A stretch of DNA of 31,250 nucleotides from Aerococcus sp. UBA6277 (GTDB lineage Bacteria; Bacillota; Bacilli; Lactobacillales; Aerococcaceae), in the NCBI RefSeq assembly GCF_002440555.1, contig NZ_DJUR01000040.1:1-31250 (forward strand), read 5' to 3'. Numbering within the stretch: position 1 is the stretch's first letter; every line of letters begins with the position of its first letter. Positions 1 through 7,468 of the stretch are shown here, piece after piece. The notes beneath the pieces were generated by a model. That model was not told where the DNA came from. It did no database searches and was given only the letters and a program-made list of their open reading frames with translations. A program made the translations under genes and the position numbers.

Positions 1-45
1 CTAACTTTTGGGGGCCTCTACACTCCAGGCGATTTTTTCTATTTC

Positions 46-1218
46 CTATACTTTTTGATTGGCAAATTCTGTTCGAATATCGGTCAGTAACTCTGGTTTG
101 CTGATAACATCAACACCTGTACGCGCCAGCGTTTCAACAACTCTCATCATCATGTCATAAGCAAACGGTGTTTGGGTGCAGTCTCTAAATTCAGGTGTAT
201 GTCCGATAACACGTTTACCGTCTGTGATTGAATAGTAGGAATGGATTGAAGGAACAACATGGCTAACATCCCCCATGTCAATTGATCCATTTTCCCCTAA
301 TTTTTCTGGGACCATTTCAATGCCTAAGTCGCCTGCATTTTCGTTGTAGACAGCAGACAATGTCTCATTCGTAATCATATCCTTGTAAATATTTTCAAAG
401 TTTGTGTGCTTCATGGTACAACCACTGGCAAGTGCTGCGGCCTTAGCACAGTTGATGATTTTTTCCGATAAAACTTCCATATAAGGCGTATCCAAGGCGC
501 GGACATAGAACTCAGCGCGTGTGTATTCAGGGATCACATTGGCTGCGTCTCCACCATGGGTGATAATCCCATGTACACGGGCAGATGACCGCATTTCTTG
601 GCGTAAGCTATTGATATTGTTAAATAGGTTTAACATAGCATCTAAGGCGTTAATCCCCTCTTCTGGCGCTTCTGCAGCATGAGCTGGTTTACCGAAAAAT
701 TCAAAAGCAATTGGGTGGATAGCCATTGAAGTCCCAGACATCGTATTTTCATCTGAAGGATGGGTACACATAGCCACATCTACGTCGTCAAAAACGCCTA
801 TATTAGTCATATCTACCTTAGTTCCAGTTGTTTCTTCTGCAGGCGTTCCTAAAACAACCACTCGGCCGCCAGTCTGGTTGATCACCTTAGATAAGGCGAT
901 ACCTGCACCAGTGTCTACAGTCCCAAGCATATTGTGGCCACAACCATGTCCGATTGAAGGTAAGGCGTCGTATTCAGACAAGTAAGCAATTGTTGGGCCA
1001 GGTTGACCTGAATCAAAAGTCGCTCTAAAGGCTGTATCAAAGCCAGCATATGGTGCTTCAACAGTGAAACCATGTTTCTCAAGCAATGCAATATGAGCCT
1101 TTGACGATTTAAATTCTTGATGGCCTAGTTCTGGATTGGCAAAAATATAATCGCTCAATTCTCTTAAGTCAGTTTCTAGGGCGCTAACTTCTTGATGTAA
1201 TATTTCTTTTACAGTCAT
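46..1218 (-). CDS. M20 family amidohydrolase, ACY1L2/PM20D2-like
   Basis: This 390-residue metallo-amidohydrolase probably cleaves an N-acyl or dipeptide-like amide in the cytoplasm. The metal-binding motif GHGCGHN is at residues 90-96 and the catalytic acid segment GTPAEE at 124-129. The pattern IAYLSEYDALP just before the histidine motif, and VFDDVDVAMCTHP after it, are typical of the ACY1L2/AbgB-like branch of M20, whose mammalian member PM20D2 cleaves dipeptides ending in Lys, Orn or Arg. No signal peptide is seen. The start has a GGAAG ribosome site. The gene lies 18 bases after the YfcC-type permease and shares its lysine riboswitch, so a lysine-releasing role is inferred from context. 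The exact substrate cannot be read from the sequence; p-aminobenzoyl-glutamate or another acyl amino acid is possible. Confidence 0.88.
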   Translation of the reverse strand: MTVKEILHQEVSALETDLRELSDYIFANPELGHQEFKSSKAHIALLEKHGFTVEAPYAGFDTAFRATFDSGQPGPTIAYLSEYDALPSIGHGCGHNMLGTVDTGAGIALSKVINQTGGRVVVLGTPAEETTGTKVDMTNIGVFDDVDVAMCTHPSDENTMSGTSMAIHPIAFEFFGKPAHAAEAPEEGINALDAMLNLFNNINSLRQEMRSSARVHGIITHGGDAANVIPEYTRAEFYVRALDTPYMEVLSEKIINCAKAAALASGCTMKHTNFENIYKDMITNETLSAVYNENAGDLGIEMVPEKLGENGSIDMGDVSHVVPSIHSYYSITDGKRVIGHTPEFRDCTQTPFAYDMMMRVVETLARTGVDVISKPELLTDIRTEFANQKV

Positions 1219-1236
1219 AAAATTTACTCTTCCTTT

Positions 1237-2652
1237 CTAGAATGGGCCATAGCTTACAAAATGGGCAAAGATTAAGAAAGCCAATCCGATTAAGATGTAT
1301 ACGGCAAGTAACGGCATGAACCATTTAAACCACTTGTTATATGGAATTTTAGCCAGTGACAATTCAGCCATTAGGACACCGGATGTTGGAATAATGGCAT
1401 CCATGAAACCTGACCCTAATTGAAAAGCAAGTACAGCTGTTTGCCTTGTGATATCTAGTGAGTCAGCGATTGGTAACATGATTGGCATAGTCGCCGCGGC
1501 TTGACCTGAACCAGATGGGATAAAGAAGTTAATCAATATTTGAATCACGTACATACCAACTGATCCTAAGATAGTTGGGAAAATGTTTACCACTTGTACA
1601 AGATTGTAAATAATTGTATCTAAGATCATTCCATTTTCCATGACTACTAAAATACCGCGGGCGAAAACAATGGCAAGTACTGAGAACATCATCTCAGCAG
1701 CACCAGAAACGAAGGTGTCGGCTATTTTACCAGTTGAAAGACCCCCGATTAAGGCTGAAACAACTGCCATGGTAAAGAACATTGCACCTAGTTCGTCAAT
1801 AAACCAACCAATCTGGAATACACCGTATACCATCATGGCAAAACCGAATAGTAAAGCCACAGAAATCCACTTGTGGCGTGCTGAAAAGGCTGGTAGTTCC
1901 TGTTCATTTAAATCGATATAGTCAGCTTGCGCTTTATCCGCAGCTTCTAAATCAGCTACGTCGCTTTTGCTTGGATCAGCTTTGACTTTTTTCGCATAAC
2001 GCATAATAAAAATCGTCGTTACAGCCCAAAGAACAATGAATAAGGCGATACGTAGGCCAACACCTGAGAACAATGGTAATTCAGCTAAGGCTTGGGCAAC
2101 ACCTACTGAGAATGGGTTCATAAAACCGGCGTTAAAGCCGACTGCAGCCCCAAGAATTAAAACGGCAATCCCAGTCATGGCATCGTAGCCTAAAGCTCTA
2201 GCTAGTGCGATACCGATTGGGATGAAGAGGATAATTTCCTCTGATAAACCTAAAGTGGCACCACCTAAACCAGTCACAAAAACAAGAATAGGAATGAAGA
2301 CTTGCTCGCGTCCTTTTAAGGTACGGACTAAACGACCCATTAAGGCTTCAAGAATGCCTGTTTCGTTAATTAATTTAAATGATCCACCTGTGATAAAGAG
2401 GAAGAATACGATAGATCCTACCTCAATAAAAGCTTGCGGTAAGGCCAGAATCAACTTGAAGGGATTTTGTGGGCTAGAATCAATAAAATGGAAAGAATCT
2501 GGTACTAAAACAGTTCGATCATCGACCAGCATTCGTTCAAACTCCCCTGCTGGAATAAACCAGGTTAAGACCATCATGATGACCATGATTGAAAATAAAA
2601 GCACTAATGCATTCGGCATGTGTAACTTTTTTGGAAAAAGTTTTGACTTCAT
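1237..2652 (-). CDS. YfcC family membrane transporter, candidate lysine or lysyl-peptide permease
   Basis: This 471-residue polytopic protein belongs to the YfcC/DcuC-like superfamily of secondary carriers, which includes annotated arginine/ornithine antiporter relatives. It opens with a short basic tail and a first membrane helix ending in the WFIPAGEFER element common in the family. About ten to twelve hydrophobic segments follow. A soluble acidic loop lies near residues 225-260, and the PSGSGQAAATMPIM segment lies near 380-395. The gene is first in a two-gene operon behind a lysine riboswitch and its terminator, so expression should fall when lysine is abundant. That predicts uptake of lysine or a lysine-containing compound; the M20 enzyme next door favours the second. 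The substrate is inferred, not seen. Ribosome site AAAGGAG precedes the ATG. Confidence 0.85.
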   Translation of the reverse strand: MKSKLFPKKLHMPNALVLLFSIMVIMMVLTWFIPAGEFERMLVDDRTVLVPDSFHFIDSSPQNPFKLILALPQAFIEVGSIVFFLFITGGSFKLINETGILEALMGRLVRTLKGREQVFIPILVFVTGLGGATLGLSEEIILFIPIGIALARALGYDAMTGIAVLILGAAVGFNAGFMNPFSVGVAQALAELPLFSGVGLRIALFIVLWAVTTIFIMRYAKKVKADPSKSDVADLEAADKAQADYIDLNEQELPAFSARHKWISVALLFGFAMMVYGVFQIGWFIDELGAMFFTMAVVSALIGGLSTGKIADTFVSGAAEMMFSVLAIVFARGILVVMENGMILDTIIYNLVQVVNIFPTILGSVGMYVIQILINFFIPSGSGQAAATMPIMLPIADSLDITRQTAVLAFQLGSGFMDAIIPTSGVLMAELSLAKIPYNKWFKWFMPLLAVYILIGLAFLIFAHFVSYGPF

Positions 2653-2679
2653 AAAAAAGCTCCTTTAATAAAATTCAAT

Positions 2680-2717
2680 AAAAAAATACCAAGGCAAGCA
2701 AAAGCTCGACTTGGTAT
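2680..2717 (-). terminator. Intrinsic terminator of the lysine riboswitch
   Basis: On the minus strand an 8-bp stem ATACCAAG/CTTGGTAT closes a loop and is followed by a run of seven T. It sits between the aptamer and the yfcC start, about 30 bases before the ATG. The loop carries CTTTTGC, which is complementary to GCAAAAG at about 2738-2744, just after the aptamer. Pairing of these two would open the terminator, so the layout fits a transcriptional off-switch. Confidence 0.88.
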
Positions 2718-2750
2718 CGGTTGAATACAGAAATCACTTTTGCCCGCAAA

Positions 2751-2898
2751 GTAGAAAGCGCTCCTGGAAGGAATTGGGCATTCCTTTTTGGCAGTGATGC
2801 ATTTTTTTAATACACCCCCAACAGTAAATCATACTGTTTCGGCTAATAACCCTTTCTCCAAATGGATACTGATGTGATTAGCGGCCTCTTTCTATTCC
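2751..2898 (-). promoter_or_regulatory. Lysine riboswitch (L-box) aptamer
   Basis: Read on the minus strand, the segment carries the landmark blocks of the lysine riboswitch in the right order: AGAGGCCGC, AGTATCCATTTGGAGAAAGG, AGCCGAAACAGT, a GGGGGTGTATTA/TGCATCACTGCC region, and a closing helix that pairs GAAAG at the 5' end with CTTTC at the 3' end. The length, about 148 nt, is normal for the class. The known class binds L-lysine and usually lowers expression of lysine synthesis or transport genes. Here it controls the YfcC-type permease and the M20 amidohydrolase. Confidence 0.93.
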
Positions 2899-2919
2899 GC
2901 ATTTATTCATTTAAGTCTA

Positions 2920-2948
2920 ATCTTATGAAATAAAAGGTACAATATCAA
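2920..2948 (-). promoter_or_regulatory. Promoter of the lysine-riboswitch operon
   Basis: TTGATA, a 17-base spacer and TAAGAT on the minus strand resemble a sigma-A promoter. It would start transcription near 2913, about 15 bases before the aptamer, which is the expected spacing. Confidence 0.7.
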
Positions 2949-3017
2949 GAAATTTTACAATCGATGTTATATGCTATTGTACATTCATGACAAAAATTCG
3001 TTAAACTAAGCCAAAAA

Positions 3018-3695
3018 CTATAAATCATATATTTCATTTAAGTGCGCAATATCATAGGTTGGCATTACTGGATCTTTTACTTCTTTCCTTTTTGGGTTAT
3101 ACCAAATGGTGTCGATTCCAGCATTAATACCTCCTTGAATATCTGACGTAAGCGAATCTCCAATAATGGCTGTTTCTTCTTTATTAAAATATGGGATTCT
3201 TGAGAATACTGTATTAAAGAAATTTATACTAGGCTTTTGAGCATTCAGTTCCTCAGATATGAACACATCTTTAAAGTACGGCATCAAACCAGATTTTTGT
3301 AAACGATAAGATTGCGTCTCAGCAATTCCATTGGTAACGATAAATAAATTTGCCTGTTTAGAAAGTGAATTCACTAGTTCCAAACTATTTTCAACAGGTT
3401 TTATACCTTCTTTTAGATACTGCCGATAATTTCTTTCCATTTCAACACTATCCACTTCAATTCCTAGTTGATTGAAGAAAATACCAAATCTACCATTTAC
3501 AACTTGTTCTGAGGTTAAAATCCCTTGTTCGAATTGGCGCCAGCGACTTTGATTCATGGTATTATACATTTTCTCAGTTTCCTCATTATAAGGAATATCC
3601 ATAGACTCAAATAAAAATTTCAATGCAACCTTTTGCGCATCTTGAAAATCTAATAAGGTATCATCTACATCAAATAATAAGTTTTTATACTTCAT
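3018..3695 (-). CDS. YjjG-like HAD-family nucleotidase
   Basis: This 225-residue soluble HAD phosphatase has its catalytic motif DVDDT at residues 9-13, where D9 is the nucleophile and D11 the acid/base. Motif II is in the FIVTNGIAET stretch near residue 120, and motif III/IV is GDSLTSDIQGG near 180-190. The helical C1 cap between motifs I and II and the whole length match the YjjG/YfnB group. Those enzymes dephosphorylate pyrimidine nucleoside monophosphates, including noncanonical ones, and are treated as house-cleaning enzymes. An AGAGG ribosome site lies before the ATG. The gene is alone between the lysine operon leader and the alpha/beta hydrolase, both on the same strand. The specific substrate cannot be told from sequence. 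Confidence 0.85.
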   Translation of the reverse strand: MKYKNLLFDVDDTLLDFQDAQKVALKFLFESMDIPYNEETEKMYNTMNQSRWRQFEQGILTSEQVVNGRFGIFFNQLGIEVDSVEMERNYRQYLKEGIKPVENSLELVNSLSKQANLFIVTNGIAETQSYRLQKSGLMPYFKDVFISEELNAQKPSINFFNTVFSRIPYFNKEETAIIGDSLTSDIQGGINAGIDTIWYNPKRKEVKDPVMPTYDIAHLNEIYDL

Positions 3696-3742
3696 ATTTA
3701 CCTCTTTTTATTATCCTAAACCCATAGTATCATCCTAAGCGC

Positions 3743-4672
3743 TCAGGAATAAACGCCTTTTAAGATGATTTCTTTCAACCAATTTTCAGCTAGCGGTAGC
3801 CATTGCGCGGCAGTTTTATTCACTTGATTGGGCATGGTTGCAGAAAGCTCGTTAGCCACTGAAAGGCCGTGTGGTCCTTCTTGGAAAATATGCATTTCAA
3901 ACGGAATTTGATTTTCTTCTAATGCTAAGGCTAGTGATAAGGAATCACGTACATTAACAACATCATCTTCACGTGTCGCCCAAATAAAAGTTGGTGCAGT
4001 ATGTTCATTCACAGTAGCTGGGACAGAATAACGTTCAATTTCTGCTTCACTAGGTAGTGGTTTTCCAAAGCAAACTAAAGATATAGCTGTTGCATAGGCC
4101 TTGATATTTGGGTCAGGATTGGCAATGTTTTGGTGATAATAATAGGCAATATCAGTTAGGGCGTAGGCAGAAATATTAAATGCTGGTTTCAAGGCTTTGC
4201 CCTTCAAATTTGTTGCATTTTGAATCACATCTTCATGCCATACATTACTGTACATCCCGGTATTGTGACCACCAGCAGAAAATCCTGCTAGGCCAATCTT
4301 ATCAGTATCAATGCGCCACTCAGTCGCATATTGATGCAAAATTTCAAATGCCTTAGCAGTTTCTTGTAGCGCATGGGGGAAAATAACATCAGATTTAACC
4401 GGAAATTGCCCTTCTGCAATGATTTCTGCAGTTGTTTTCCCTTGCCCATAGACCGAATATCGCAAGACAAATGCGTGAAAGCCCATAGCATTAAATGCCA
4501 ATGCCACTGGTTCAGCTTCTCTATCTGAACAGTACATATATGAACCACCGGGACAGATAATCACGGCCGGTCGTTCAATGTTCACATTACTTGTGCGGAT
4601 TGGATCAATCACGTAGCTAGTTAAGGTCACATCATCACGATCATTATATAGCTTTATTACTTCTTTTTGCAT
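3743..4672 (-). CDS. Alpha/beta hydrolase, esterase/acetylxylan-esterase-like
   Basis: This is a 309-residue cytoplasmic alpha/beta hydrolase. The oxyanion strand-loop PAVIICPGGSYMYCSDRE is near residues 35-52, the nucleophile elbow GFSAGGH centres on S132, an acidic residue lies in the TREDDVVNVRDS segment near 235-245, and the catalytic histidine is in EGPHGLS near 265. The layout matches the BD-FAE/Axe-type small esterases that remove acyl groups from sugars or other small substrates. No signal peptide is seen, so the substrate must be intracellular. It lies just after the galT terminator on the same strand, in a region otherwise devoted to sugar genes; this hints at, but does not prove, a role in deacetylating imported sugars. 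Start chosen at an ATG with GGAGA upstream. Confidence 0.8.
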   Translation of the reverse strand: MQKEVIKLYNDRDDVTLTSYVIDPIRTSNVNIERPAVIICPGGSYMYCSDREAEPVALAFNAMGFHAFVLRYSVYGQGKTTAEIIAEGQFPVKSDVIFPHALQETAKAFEILHQYATEWRIDTDKIGLAGFSAGGHNTGMYSNVWHEDVIQNATNLKGKALKPAFNISAYALTDIAYYYHQNIANPDPNIKAYATAISLVCFGKPLPSEAEIERYSVPATVNEHTAPTFIWATREDDVVNVRDSLSLALALEENQIPFEMHIFQEGPHGLSVANELSATMPNQVNKTAAQWLPLAENWLKEIILKGVYS

Positions 4673-4732
4673 CAGACGTTCTCTCCTCTAAATTTCATTA
4701 ATGCCATTATAGCATTTGATTTTCATTAGAGA

Positions 4733-4776
4733 AAAAGAAAACCCCCGTCTCCAAATAGCAAGAAACGGGGGCATGA
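4733..4776 (-). terminator. Terminator after galT
   Basis: On the minus strand GCCCCCGTTTC and GAGACGGGGG form a GC-rich stem followed by TTTTCTTTTT. It lies directly after the stop of the galT reading frame. Confidence 0.85.
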
Positions 4777-4781
4777 AAAAT

Positions 4782-6262
4782 TTAAGAAACGATACCTACC
4801 GATTGAATAAATCGATTAAAGCCATCTTTTCCTGCTGGTGTATCTTTATACACACCAGCATCTTCTAAGACGCGTACAAAAACATTTGCAATTTCATCTT
4901 TTAAAATAGTATGCACTGTATCTGGAGTAAACGTATGGTGATAATTTTGCTTTAATTCTTGTGCCCATGTTAAATGGTAAGCTGCAATATTATTTTCTTT
5001 ATCTAATAGATAGTCAGCAACCGCCGAGATTTCATCTTTTAAGCGTGGTGGTAATATAGCTAAGCCCATTACTTCAATTAAACCGATATTTTCCTGTTTA
5101 ATATGTTGCACATCTTGATGTGGATGATAAACGCCATCTGGATATTGTGATGAAGTATGATTATCACGTAAAACCAAATCTAGTTCGAATTTGTCCCCAT
5201 TTTTGCGGGCGATAGGTGTAATTGTATGATGAGCTTCGTCCCCTGTATATGCAATTACATCTAGATTTGGATCTTCATATGTTTGCCAAGCCAGTCGGAT
5301 TTTATCGGCCAAGGTCACCAAATCTCCGCGCTCTTTTCCTTGTAGACGTATCACAGACATGGGCCATTTGACAATCCCAGCTTGGATGTTTGGGTAACCT
5401 TCAAACGTGAATTGACTTTCAAAGGGCGCCTTAGCCATAGGGAAATCATGACGTCCCGTTTGATAATGATTATGCGTTAGAATTGAACCTCCTACAATCG
5501 GCAAATCGGCATTAGATCCAGCAAAATATCCAGGAAAAATAGCTACAATGTCTAATAATTGTTCAAATGTTTGTTTTGAAATGACCATGGGGACATGCTG
5601 TGTGTTTAATACAATACTATGCTCATTGAAATAGGCATATGGTGAATATTGGAACCCCCACTTCTCATCCCTAATTGAAGACGAATAATTCTGTGGTTAG
5701 CGCGCGCCGGATGGTTGATTCTGCCTTGATATCCTTCATTTTCCATGCATAGCTGGCAAAGAGGATAACTAGAAGATTGCGCTTTTTTGGCGGCAGCGAT
5801 TGCCTTGGGATCTTTTTCAGGTTTTGATAGGTTAATGGTAATTTCCACTGGTCCATAGGCCGTTTGACTTGTATACGCAATGTTCTTAGCAATGGCCCCT
5901 ACTTTAATATAGTCATTACGTTGACTCAGCGCATAAAATTCCTGGATTGCCTCTTCTGGAGAAATTTGATAGGTATCCCAAAAGTGTTGATTTAAAACAC
6001 TAGGGGCTGGAGTGATAAAATCCATTAATGCAGCGCCTAAAGTATCTCGCTCTTCTGTTAAATCCCCTACTTTTCCGTTGTCAACAGCAACATCTACTAA
6101 GGCATCACTTAAGGAAATAAGGGTGGTTCTAGCTGTTTCTTGATTGGCACCTGCTTCACCAGTTAATGCTAAGATTCGATCGCGTAAATAAAAATGATCG
6201 TCTATTGTATAATCACTATTTTCAATAACCTGTGTAACAAAGGCATCAATTAGTTTTGCCAT
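4782..6262 (-). pseudogene. galT: galT, class II galactose-1-phosphate uridylyltransferase, frameshifted
   Basis: Two adjoining minus-strand frames together encode a full class II GalT of the Leloir pathway. The upstream part (to about 5670) has the N-terminal region ending in a CQLCMENEGYQGR motif and [15 protein letters not shown]. The downstream part resumes with [18 protein letters not shown] and contains [19 protein letters not shown] with the active-site histidines. The frame breaks at the three-C run at 5669-5671 (GGG on the coding strand); adding one G restores one frame through both parts. The span is 1481 bases, one short of 494 codons, so a single-base deletion explains everything. 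The enzyme would be cut after about 200 residues. The start, with AAGGAG, lies four bases from the galK stop, as in a coupled galKT operon. A sequencing error in a homopolymer is the alternative. Confidence 0.9.
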
Positions 6263-6266
6263 GTCA

Positions 6267-6625
6267 TCATCTCCTTGTTAGTACACGCGCGCCACTTGAG
6301 ATTTCTGCGATATAAAATTGTGGTGGATAGCCGATTGTTTCAGTATATACACATCCTACTTGCTCTTTAAAAGCATCCACCTTGTCTTTTGCGACGATGG
6401 CAATGCCACATCCTCCAAAGCCTGCGCCCGTCATACGCGCGCCTAATACACCCTCCTGTGCCCATGCTGTATGGACCAAGGTATCTAGCTCGATTCCGGT
6501 AACTTCATAATCGTGTTCTAATGATACATGGGAGGCATTCATTAAGCGACCAAATGCTAATAGATCCCCAGTTTGCAATGCTTGTCGTGCAAGTGACGTT
6601 CGTTGGTTTTCCCAAACATCAAAAG
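6267..6625 (-). pseudogene. galK: galK, C-terminal fragment of galactokinase
   Basis: About 118 residues match the end of galactokinase, a GHMP kinase that phosphorylates galactose at C1. The stretch begins with VWENQRT, continues through [20 protein letters not shown], and contains the GHMP motif 3 region [12 protein letters not shown]. The usual protein is about 390 residues, so some 270 N-terminal residues, with the galactose-binding signature and the ATP-binding GHMP motif, are missing. Upstream of about 6625 the sequence is not galactokinase but the opposite-strand galR remnant. A deletion has therefore joined the two divergent genes and removed the promoter between them. No functional kinase can be made, and galT downstream has lost its promoter. 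Confidence 0.88.
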
Positions 6626-7468
6626 ACGACGAATATACCAAAACAGCGACAAAAAATTGCTGTTGTCCAATGGTATAGTGAGCAAGAAGAATTAAATGAT
6701 TTATATTATTACGCTATTCGGATTGGGATAGAAAAACGTGCCGAAGATTTAACCTATGATATTGTCCGTTATTTCAATAATCAAATTATTCAAATTGCTG
6801 ATGATATTGCTGGAATTATTGCCATCGGTAAATTTTCTAATCAACAAATTAAACGGTTAGAGTCCTATAATCGCAAATTGGTTTTTGTGGATTCAGATAC
6901 CTTAAATGCTGGTCATCCCTGTGTGACAACTGATTTTGATAATGCCGTGATTCAAGTATTAGATTATTTTATGCAGCATGGGTTAACATCAATAGGTATG
7001 ATTGCCGGTGAAGAGAAAACGACAGATGGTAAGGAACAGTTAATTGATCAACGGTTCAGAACTTTCCGAAACTATGCATCTGAACTTGGTGTTTACCATG
7101 CAAAATATACGTATATTGGTGATTTTTCAGCACAAGCTGGGTATGATTTGATGAAACAGGCCATCACTGAACATGGAGAAGCCCTTCCACAAGCTTTCTT
7201 TGTGGCCAATGATACATTAGCTATTGGTGCTTTACGTGCCCTTCAGGAGGCGCGTATTGCTGTCCCTGAACGGGTGAGCCTTATTTCATTTAATGATACC
7301 CCGTTGACGAAACAGATTTTCCCCGCCCTATCCAGTGTGACCGTTTTTACCGAGGAAATGGGTCGAATTGCTGTGGATACCCTGAATCGTCAATTGATAA
7401 ACCCGGAAGTAGTACCTACTATGACTAGACTTGCCACTCGGTTAACAATACGTGATTCTAGTGTATAA
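6620..7468 (+). pseudogene. galR-like LacI-family regulator lacking its DNA-binding domain
   Basis: From about residue [18 protein letters not shown] to the end there are roughly 270 residues of a LacI/GalR effector-binding domain. Landmarks are VFVDSDTLNAGHPCVTTDFD, SIGMIAGEE, FFVANDTLAIGALRALQEA and VSLISFNDTPLTKQIFPALSSV. The N-terminal helix-turn-helix and hinge, about 55-60 residues, are absent. The open frame extends left to 6521 only because it runs through antisense galK. The domain resembles GalR regulators of lactic acid bacteria, and the divergent arrangement with galK-galT supports that identity. Without the DNA-binding domain, start codon and promoter it should be inactive. The right end is intact and runs into a bidirectional terminator. 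Confidence 0.87.

Follow-up and report, generated by a model that had tools for sequence, protein, structure and literature searches.

What does a lysine riboswitch (L-box) control when the genes behind it encode a YfcC-type carrier and an M20D metallohydrolase? The question arises in Aerococcus sp. UBA6277, in a 31,250-nucleotide stretch, the whole of contig NZ_DJUR01000040.1 (positions 1 to 31,250; hereafter the window), where the minus strand carries, in order, a promoter-like element, an L-box aptamer, an antiterminator/terminator segment, the carrier gene (yfcC), and the M20D gene. The original prediction, drawn from the letters alone, had named these parts and proposed a route in which the carrier takes up a lysyl dipeptide or N-acyl-lysine and the enzyme cuts it to free lysine. 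We favor another answer, to which we give a probability of about 0.6: a transcription-attenuating OFF lysine riboswitch on a two-gene lysine acquisition operon, whose carrier would take up free lysine.

Scanning the whole window with Infernal cmscan gave a single match above the gathering score, to the lysine riboswitch model RF00168 (77.6 bits against a gathering cut-off of 30, E 7.4e-19, model positions 1-182). By this covariance model, matched over the full aptamer, the leader belongs to the lysine riboswitch class, as the original prediction had it. The aptamer is short (151 bases), its outer P2 and P3 stretches taking up 2 and 5 bases against 28 and 17 model positions. Lysine riboswitches have a loop-loop contact between P2 and P3, and given the short outer P2 and P3 this contact may be absent from the window aptamer; the L-box before dapA in the host genome is similarly short (149 bases).

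We compared the locus with a family set of 76 genomes, an order draw of 395 genomes, and a phylum draw of 398 genomes. The family set holds 17 close yfcC homologues (at least 438 bits), and in 12 of them the matched coding stretch is preceded on the same strand by an L-box whose end lies 95-208 bases away, against 0/58 distant yfcC paralogs (p 2.4e-10, or p 1.4e-8 against the 38 paralogs in L-box-bearing genomes; both p values ignore kinship). We considered a chance match to the L-box model and rejected it on this distribution and the E value. The order draw contributed another four close homologues, of which three have an L-box, so that L-boxes, which the original prediction had looked to relatives to provide, precede 15 of the order's 21 close yfcC relatives; one further relative outside this count, from a named metagenome-assembled genome (L005), has none. 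A quick protein tree built on 61 rows groups the 20 order-level rows, 14 with an L-box, in a single clade (Shimodaira–Hasegawa approximate likelihood ratio test, SH-aLRT, 99), with several long branches flagged, and the two phylum-level L-box rows fall outside it; the tree is consistent with either two recruitments of the L-box to yfcC or one old recruitment with many losses. Behind the phylum-level L-boxes L104 and L106, the fold and terminator scan found no terminator directly following the aptamer. The row excluded from the tree, L046, is split by a stop: in its genome (G053, loci L046/L075), an in-frame TGA interrupts the L-box yfcC, and the L-box itself still scores 79.7 bits. At the six close relatives lacking an L-box, a permissive-threshold search for other leaders returned no sense-strand riboswitch above cut-off, only a thiamin pyrophosphate (TPP) riboswitch on the opposite strand, a tRNA, and sub-cut-off matches, and across the order-level yfcC loci no amino-acid riboswitch or T-box besides the lysine riboswitch was found.

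The M20D gene follows this pattern less closely. Eight of the 21 order-level yfcC loci have both L-box and M20 gene, seven the L-box only, two the M20 gene only, and four neither; at the seven L-box-only loci (7/15 of the L-box yfcC genes) M20D was not found in wider stretches either. Seen from the enzyme, the order has 25 close M20 homologues. Ten, which are also the 10 closest (at least 62% identity), adjoin yfcC; the other 15 are solitary, with no L-box (0/15) and no yfcC within 1.5 kb. M20 neighbors also occur at 7/27 phylum-level yfcC loci. Since M20 is the looser partner, the L-box goes with the carrier, and the enzyme shares in it where it is part of the operon.

Behind the aptamer lies an expression platform that would attenuate transcription. 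GCGGGCAAAAG is complementary to CUUUUGCUUGC, with which it would form an antiterminator, and the terminator hairpin folds at -18.0 kcal/mol and is followed by a U run (a simple terminator scan picked up its inner stem only, 1 site found against 2.9 expected). Both complementary arms and hairpin recur: all 15 order-level leaders have (A/G)GGCARAAG directly behind the aptamer, a complementary CUUUUG in the terminator region, and a terminator (in L041 identified by eye, where it resembles the L039 terminator; the scan there had chosen the antiterminator hairpin). Folding and the complementary arms thus support the terminator and matching antiterminator segment of the original prediction. In 13/15 leaders the best antiterminator duplex takes at least 3 bases from the extended P1 on its 3' strand, which is the arrangement of an OFF switch. 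When lysine is scarce, GCGGGCAAAAG behind P1 would capture the terminator's CUUUUGCUUGC, so that no terminator would form and yfcC and the M20D gene would be transcribed; once lysine is bound, the extended P1 helix would keep hold of the first bases of the antiterminator arm, leaving the terminator free to form.

Features of the L-box-yfcC-M20D locus in window coordinates
Feature	Position	Strand	Basis or remark
Putative promoter, TTGATA-17-TAAGAT	2920..2948	(-)	22 bases before aptamer; motif scan and leader comparison
Lysine riboswitch aptamer (L-box, RF00168)	2748..2898	(-)	covariance-model match
P1, 5' strand	2894-2888	(-)	predicted fold
P1, 3' strand	2758-2752	(-)	predicted fold
Predicted antiterminator, 5' arm, GCGGGCAAAAG	2737..2747	(-)	directly behind aptamer; (A/G)GGCARAAG in 15/15 order-level yfcC leaders
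Predicted antiterminator, 3' arm, CUUUUGCUUGC	2694..2704	(-)	within the inner stem of the terminator (loop plus 3' side)
Intrinsic terminator	2680..2718	(-)	hairpin 2718-2685, then U run; folding
yfcC-type carrier, 471 aa, putative lysine/basic amino acid transporter	1237..2652	(-)	PF03606 DcuC
M20D metallohydrolase, 390 aa, HmrA/PM20D2 branch	46..1218	(-)	PF07687/PF01546, TIGR01891

The two genes are separated by 18 bases and likely form one cotranscribed operon; any genes past M20D are invisible here because the contig stops 45 bases beyond it. A promoter-like element precedes the aptamer, as the original prediction had it, and a similar one lies 21-27 bases before the aptamer in 8/15 yfcC leaders (a count made with no control comparison); the motif alone is at chance level, with 10 promoter-like sites found in positions 1-3100 against 7.9 expected from shuffles.

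A second line of evidence on the direction of the switch comes from other L-boxes of the family. Among 29 of these (the best-scoring ones plus two of the host genome), 12 have the yfcC-type platform, and they come from 12 of the 13 genomes of one genus, g19 (L016-L022, L024-L026, L028, and L029; the thirteenth, G064, was not in the sample). None of the 13 had a YfcC match in the family search. Instead, a solute-binding protein gene stands next to the L-box in 12/12, followed by a permease gene in the three that were read. A quick aptamer tree places the 12 g19 leaders among the yfcC leaders, with support of 83-94 at the relevant forks, for what are short sequences. To judge from platform and tree, one riboswitch cassette is shared between unrelated transporter genes, and because the platform is common to an amino-acid ATP-binding cassette (ABC) importer, lysine-repressed uptake is favored. 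Platform anatomy and this importer comparison together favor the OFF direction, in which lysine would shut off uptake. The host's other L-boxes also speak for lysine acquisition. Besides the one described here, the genome has two: one before a fused solute-binding/permease protein, with an ABC ATPase behind it by eye, and one before dapA (TIGR00674, 326.7 bits). A lysA-like gene scores 278.4 bits, slightly under the cut-off of 297.9, so that the host probably synthesizes lysine. In two other genomes, a second L-box follows the L-box-yfcC-M20 unit (G463, L143 7071-7262 (-); G419, L144 8875-9066 (+)), and that of G463 fronts an NhaC-type antiporter gene (PF03553); NhaC/lysW is a known L-box target according to the accessible part of PMC5584792.

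The carrier fits the YfcC type named by the original prediction, matching PF03606 (DcuC) nearly end to end (320 bits against a cut-off of 23.1, profile positions 1-460 of 461). It is 83% identical to its counterpart in Aerococcus sp. 1KP-2016, and a PDB sequence search returned no match up to E 1. We take ArcE of Streptococcus pneumoniae to belong to the same Pfam family and thus to be kin of the window carrier. In the accessible text of PMC5300872, ArcE (transporter classification 2.A.118, ion transporter (IT) superfamily) is an arginine/ornithine exchanger whose Km values for arginine and ornithine are 0.6 and ~1 micromolar and whose affinity is high for lysine too, but not for histidine, the lysine data being marked there as "not shown." Two close relatives lacking an L-box have surroundings in keeping with such substrates: L074 stands directly before arcA, an ornithine carbamoyltransferase (OTC) gene, a YfcC paralog, and a PepV-like M20 gene (1-7399 (-)), and L153 adjoins a carbamate kinase gene. 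These surroundings place the clade among basic amino acid carriers, and its members are predicted to be putative lysine/basic amino acid transporters. The window carrier would most likely bring in free lysine, perhaps arginine and ornithine too, and perhaps by exchange.

The M20D protein matches PF07687/PF01546 and scores 199.4 bits against TIGR01891, over the cut-off of 153.75. Its nearest PDB sequences are HmrA (3ram, E 2.2e-87) and two chains labeled 'Xaa-Arg dipeptidase' (7yh4, 1.1e-75; 8xzc, 3.5e-75), which we take to be PM20D2. The PM20D2-like enzyme of the original prediction is thus supported by 7yh4, though HmrA is nearer; some relatives of the protein carry the UniRef name 'Peptidase M20 domain-containing protein 2', and the protein itself is 96% identical to a UniRef cluster named from Aerococcus sp. 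150760007-1. The alignments with the three PDB sequences extend over residues 18-386 or more and share the motifs H-x-C-G-H-N, PAEE, and His; His91, Cys93, His95, Glu128, Glu129, His153, and His180 are invariant across 18 aligned M20D sequences, with the same motifs in the HmrA and 7yh4 alignments, and are presumably metal or catalytic residues. PM20D2 is reportedly a beta-alanyl-lysine dipeptidase, as the title of a 2014 paper by Veiga-da-Cunha has it, and we know of no lysine-regulated operon containing either HmrA or PM20D2. Most likely, the window enzyme is a cytoplasmic dipeptidase that would free lysine or another basic residue from dipeptides. In two distant Firmicutes (L145 and L146), the yfcC-M20 pair stands beside an amidohydrolase gene (PF07969/PF01979), with an LD-carboxypeptidase gene two genes further on in L145. 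The best model for the amidohydrolase is PRK09061 (274.6 and 220.3 bits, under the cut-off of 340), and given this neighbor, N-acyl or peptide substrates could also be considered.

Several observations weigh against an OFF-regulated lysine acquisition operon. Six of the 21 close order-level relatives have no L-box, and only 2 of the 27 further homologues in the phylum draw (374-503 bits) have one. Four of the carriers without an L-box are uninformative on substrate, standing beside trehalose genes (L079 and L080) or beside a nucleoside transporter or thiamin-type kinase gene (L067 and L073). Against the YfcC equivalog model NF008611, the carrier scores 323 bits, under the curated cut-off of 500, and by this measure it is a YfcC-family relative and not that equivalog. 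The overlap of antiterminator and P1 is only 1 base in L085 and 0 in L049, in the window it depends, beyond GC, on a 4-pair outer helix, and in L088 only three P1 pairs are predicted. Equilibrium folding of the 15 leaders, run both unbiased and with P1 favored by a 9 kcal/mol bonus, gave a clear switch in none: the full-length terminator had a probability of 0.91-1.00 in 14/15, bonus or none, and in the window it dropped from 0.68 to 0.52 with the bonus, which is the wrong way. L046 and L087 shifted by 0.02 in the expected way, as did L088 by 0.16 at one intermediate length. Because the calculations gave small shifts both ways, the ON/OFF direction rests on anatomy and comparison.

Three other explanations have to be set against the lysine acquisition operon. 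One is the dedicated route of the original prediction, in which a lysyl dipeptide or N-acyl-lysine is imported and cut to free lysine by M20D. The pair does appear to be old, given its M20 neighbors at phylum level, each of the order's 10 closest M20 homologues has yfcC as its neighbor, and both what PM20D2 is said to cleave and the amidohydrolase gene of L145 and L146 would suit such a route. What argues against it is that 7/15 order-level L-box carriers do without an adjacent M20D, that among the 25 close M20 relatives 15 have neither yfcC nor an L-box nearby, and that ArcE, in the accessible part of PMC5300872, moves free amino acids. A lysyl dipeptide is less likely as the imported substrate than free lysine, because ArcE moves free arginine, ornithine, and lysine and because of those seven carriers. 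We therefore regard the dedicated route as unlikely: its import step is weakened, and the lysine-freeing dipeptidase at its end may stand.

The switch could also work the other way, with lysine inducing the operon to exchange, expel, or catabolize basic amino acids. ArcE is an exchanger (PMC5300872, accessible part), and PMC2258182 mentions ON lysine riboswitches, as does, for catabolic genes, the accessible part of PMC5584792. In the folding calculations P1 and the antiterminator core can both be formed at once, the small shift of the window under the P1 bonus goes toward the antiterminator, and with P1 open, its 3' strand in the window can pair over 11 bp with the region of the antiterminator arm. 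Such a blocking helix amounts to merely 4-5 pairs in the three other leaders inspected by eye (L043, L046, and L087), and lysine-ON logic agrees poorly with the P1/antiterminator overlap in 13/15 leaders and with a platform that fronts an ABC importer in 12 genomes; we find it improbable. A carrier mainly for arginine, ornithine, or citrulline, with the L-box recruited because lysine shares it, is suggested by the arcA-OTC and carbamate kinase neighbors of L074 and L153. Both of these are loci without an L-box, and the L-box is the majority state in the order (15/21), where no other amino-acid riboswitch or T-box was found on these loci; we consider this very improbable.

The arrangement itself is already noted, and here the original prediction, which knew of no description of the pair as a lysine system, is not borne out: the accessible part of a 2024 review (PMC11477304) lists, for C. 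difficile CD3100-3099, a lysine riboswitch before a 'basic amino acid antiporter' YfcC and a putative M20D amidohydrolase, in an apparent operon of uncharacterized function. Riboswitch class, gene families, gene order, and apparent operon are the same; C. difficile is a clostridium whereas the window is from a lactobacillale, and the two are compared by description, not by sequence. What we add is the wider distribution and the shared platform. The L-box-controlled lysine transporters in the accessible part of PMC5584792 are lysP/gabP, lysW (NhaC), yvsH, and lysX-lysY. They resemble the present case in having the L-box before a transporter gene, as does the lysX-lysY-type ABC importer of g19 with its yfcC platform, and differ in that the window carrier is of the DcuC/YfcC family, outside that transporter table as shown. 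The word yfcC is absent from this lysine riboswitch survey, as far as its accessible text goes, and YfcC from an RNA-regulon survey (PMC3766115). A literature search for lysine riboswitch and Aerococcus found no paper, a weak negative, as subscription literature lay mostly outside the search; one on the YfcC family and lysine brought up a single paper, on S. epidermidis. The likeness to ArcE would extend from basic amino acids as cargo (PMC5300872, accessible part) to gene surroundings. The M20-type neighbor of ArcE is arcT, and the arcA-OTC-YfcC paralog-PepV-like M20 cluster of L074 resembles this setting. ArcE differs in belonging to an arginine deiminase cluster, and the YfcC paralog in L074 is 31% identical to the window carrier and has no L-box.

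If the lysine acquisition operon is real, lysine would be assigned as substrate to a branch of a widespread carrier family, of which ArcE is the sole characterized member that we met. It would also give a regulatory rationale for the yfcC-M20D pair, which is present in Lactobacillales and other Firmicutes and is reported in C. difficile (PMC11477304, accessible part), and, if the M20D enzyme frees lysine, it would make that enzyme a lysine-controlled peptidase. A broader and much more speculative proposal, which we consider doubtful, is that this YfcC clade comprises unrecognized Lactobacillales lysine carriers with a portable L-box cassette, also used on the g19 ABC lysine importer, and that with the M20D partner they form a lysine-repressed route from basic dipeptides, for example beta-alanyl-lysine of animal hosts.

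Elsewhere in the window, on the minus strand between 4782 and 6641, galT is broken into two open reading frames (ORFs), at 5588-4782 (C-terminal domain) and 6262-5606 (N-terminal domain), and of galK only the C-terminal domain is present, as an ORF of 124 aa (6641-6267). In the relative L066, galK (421-1599) and galT (1604-3085) are each intact. The split galT and short galK could reflect either decay or sequencing error.

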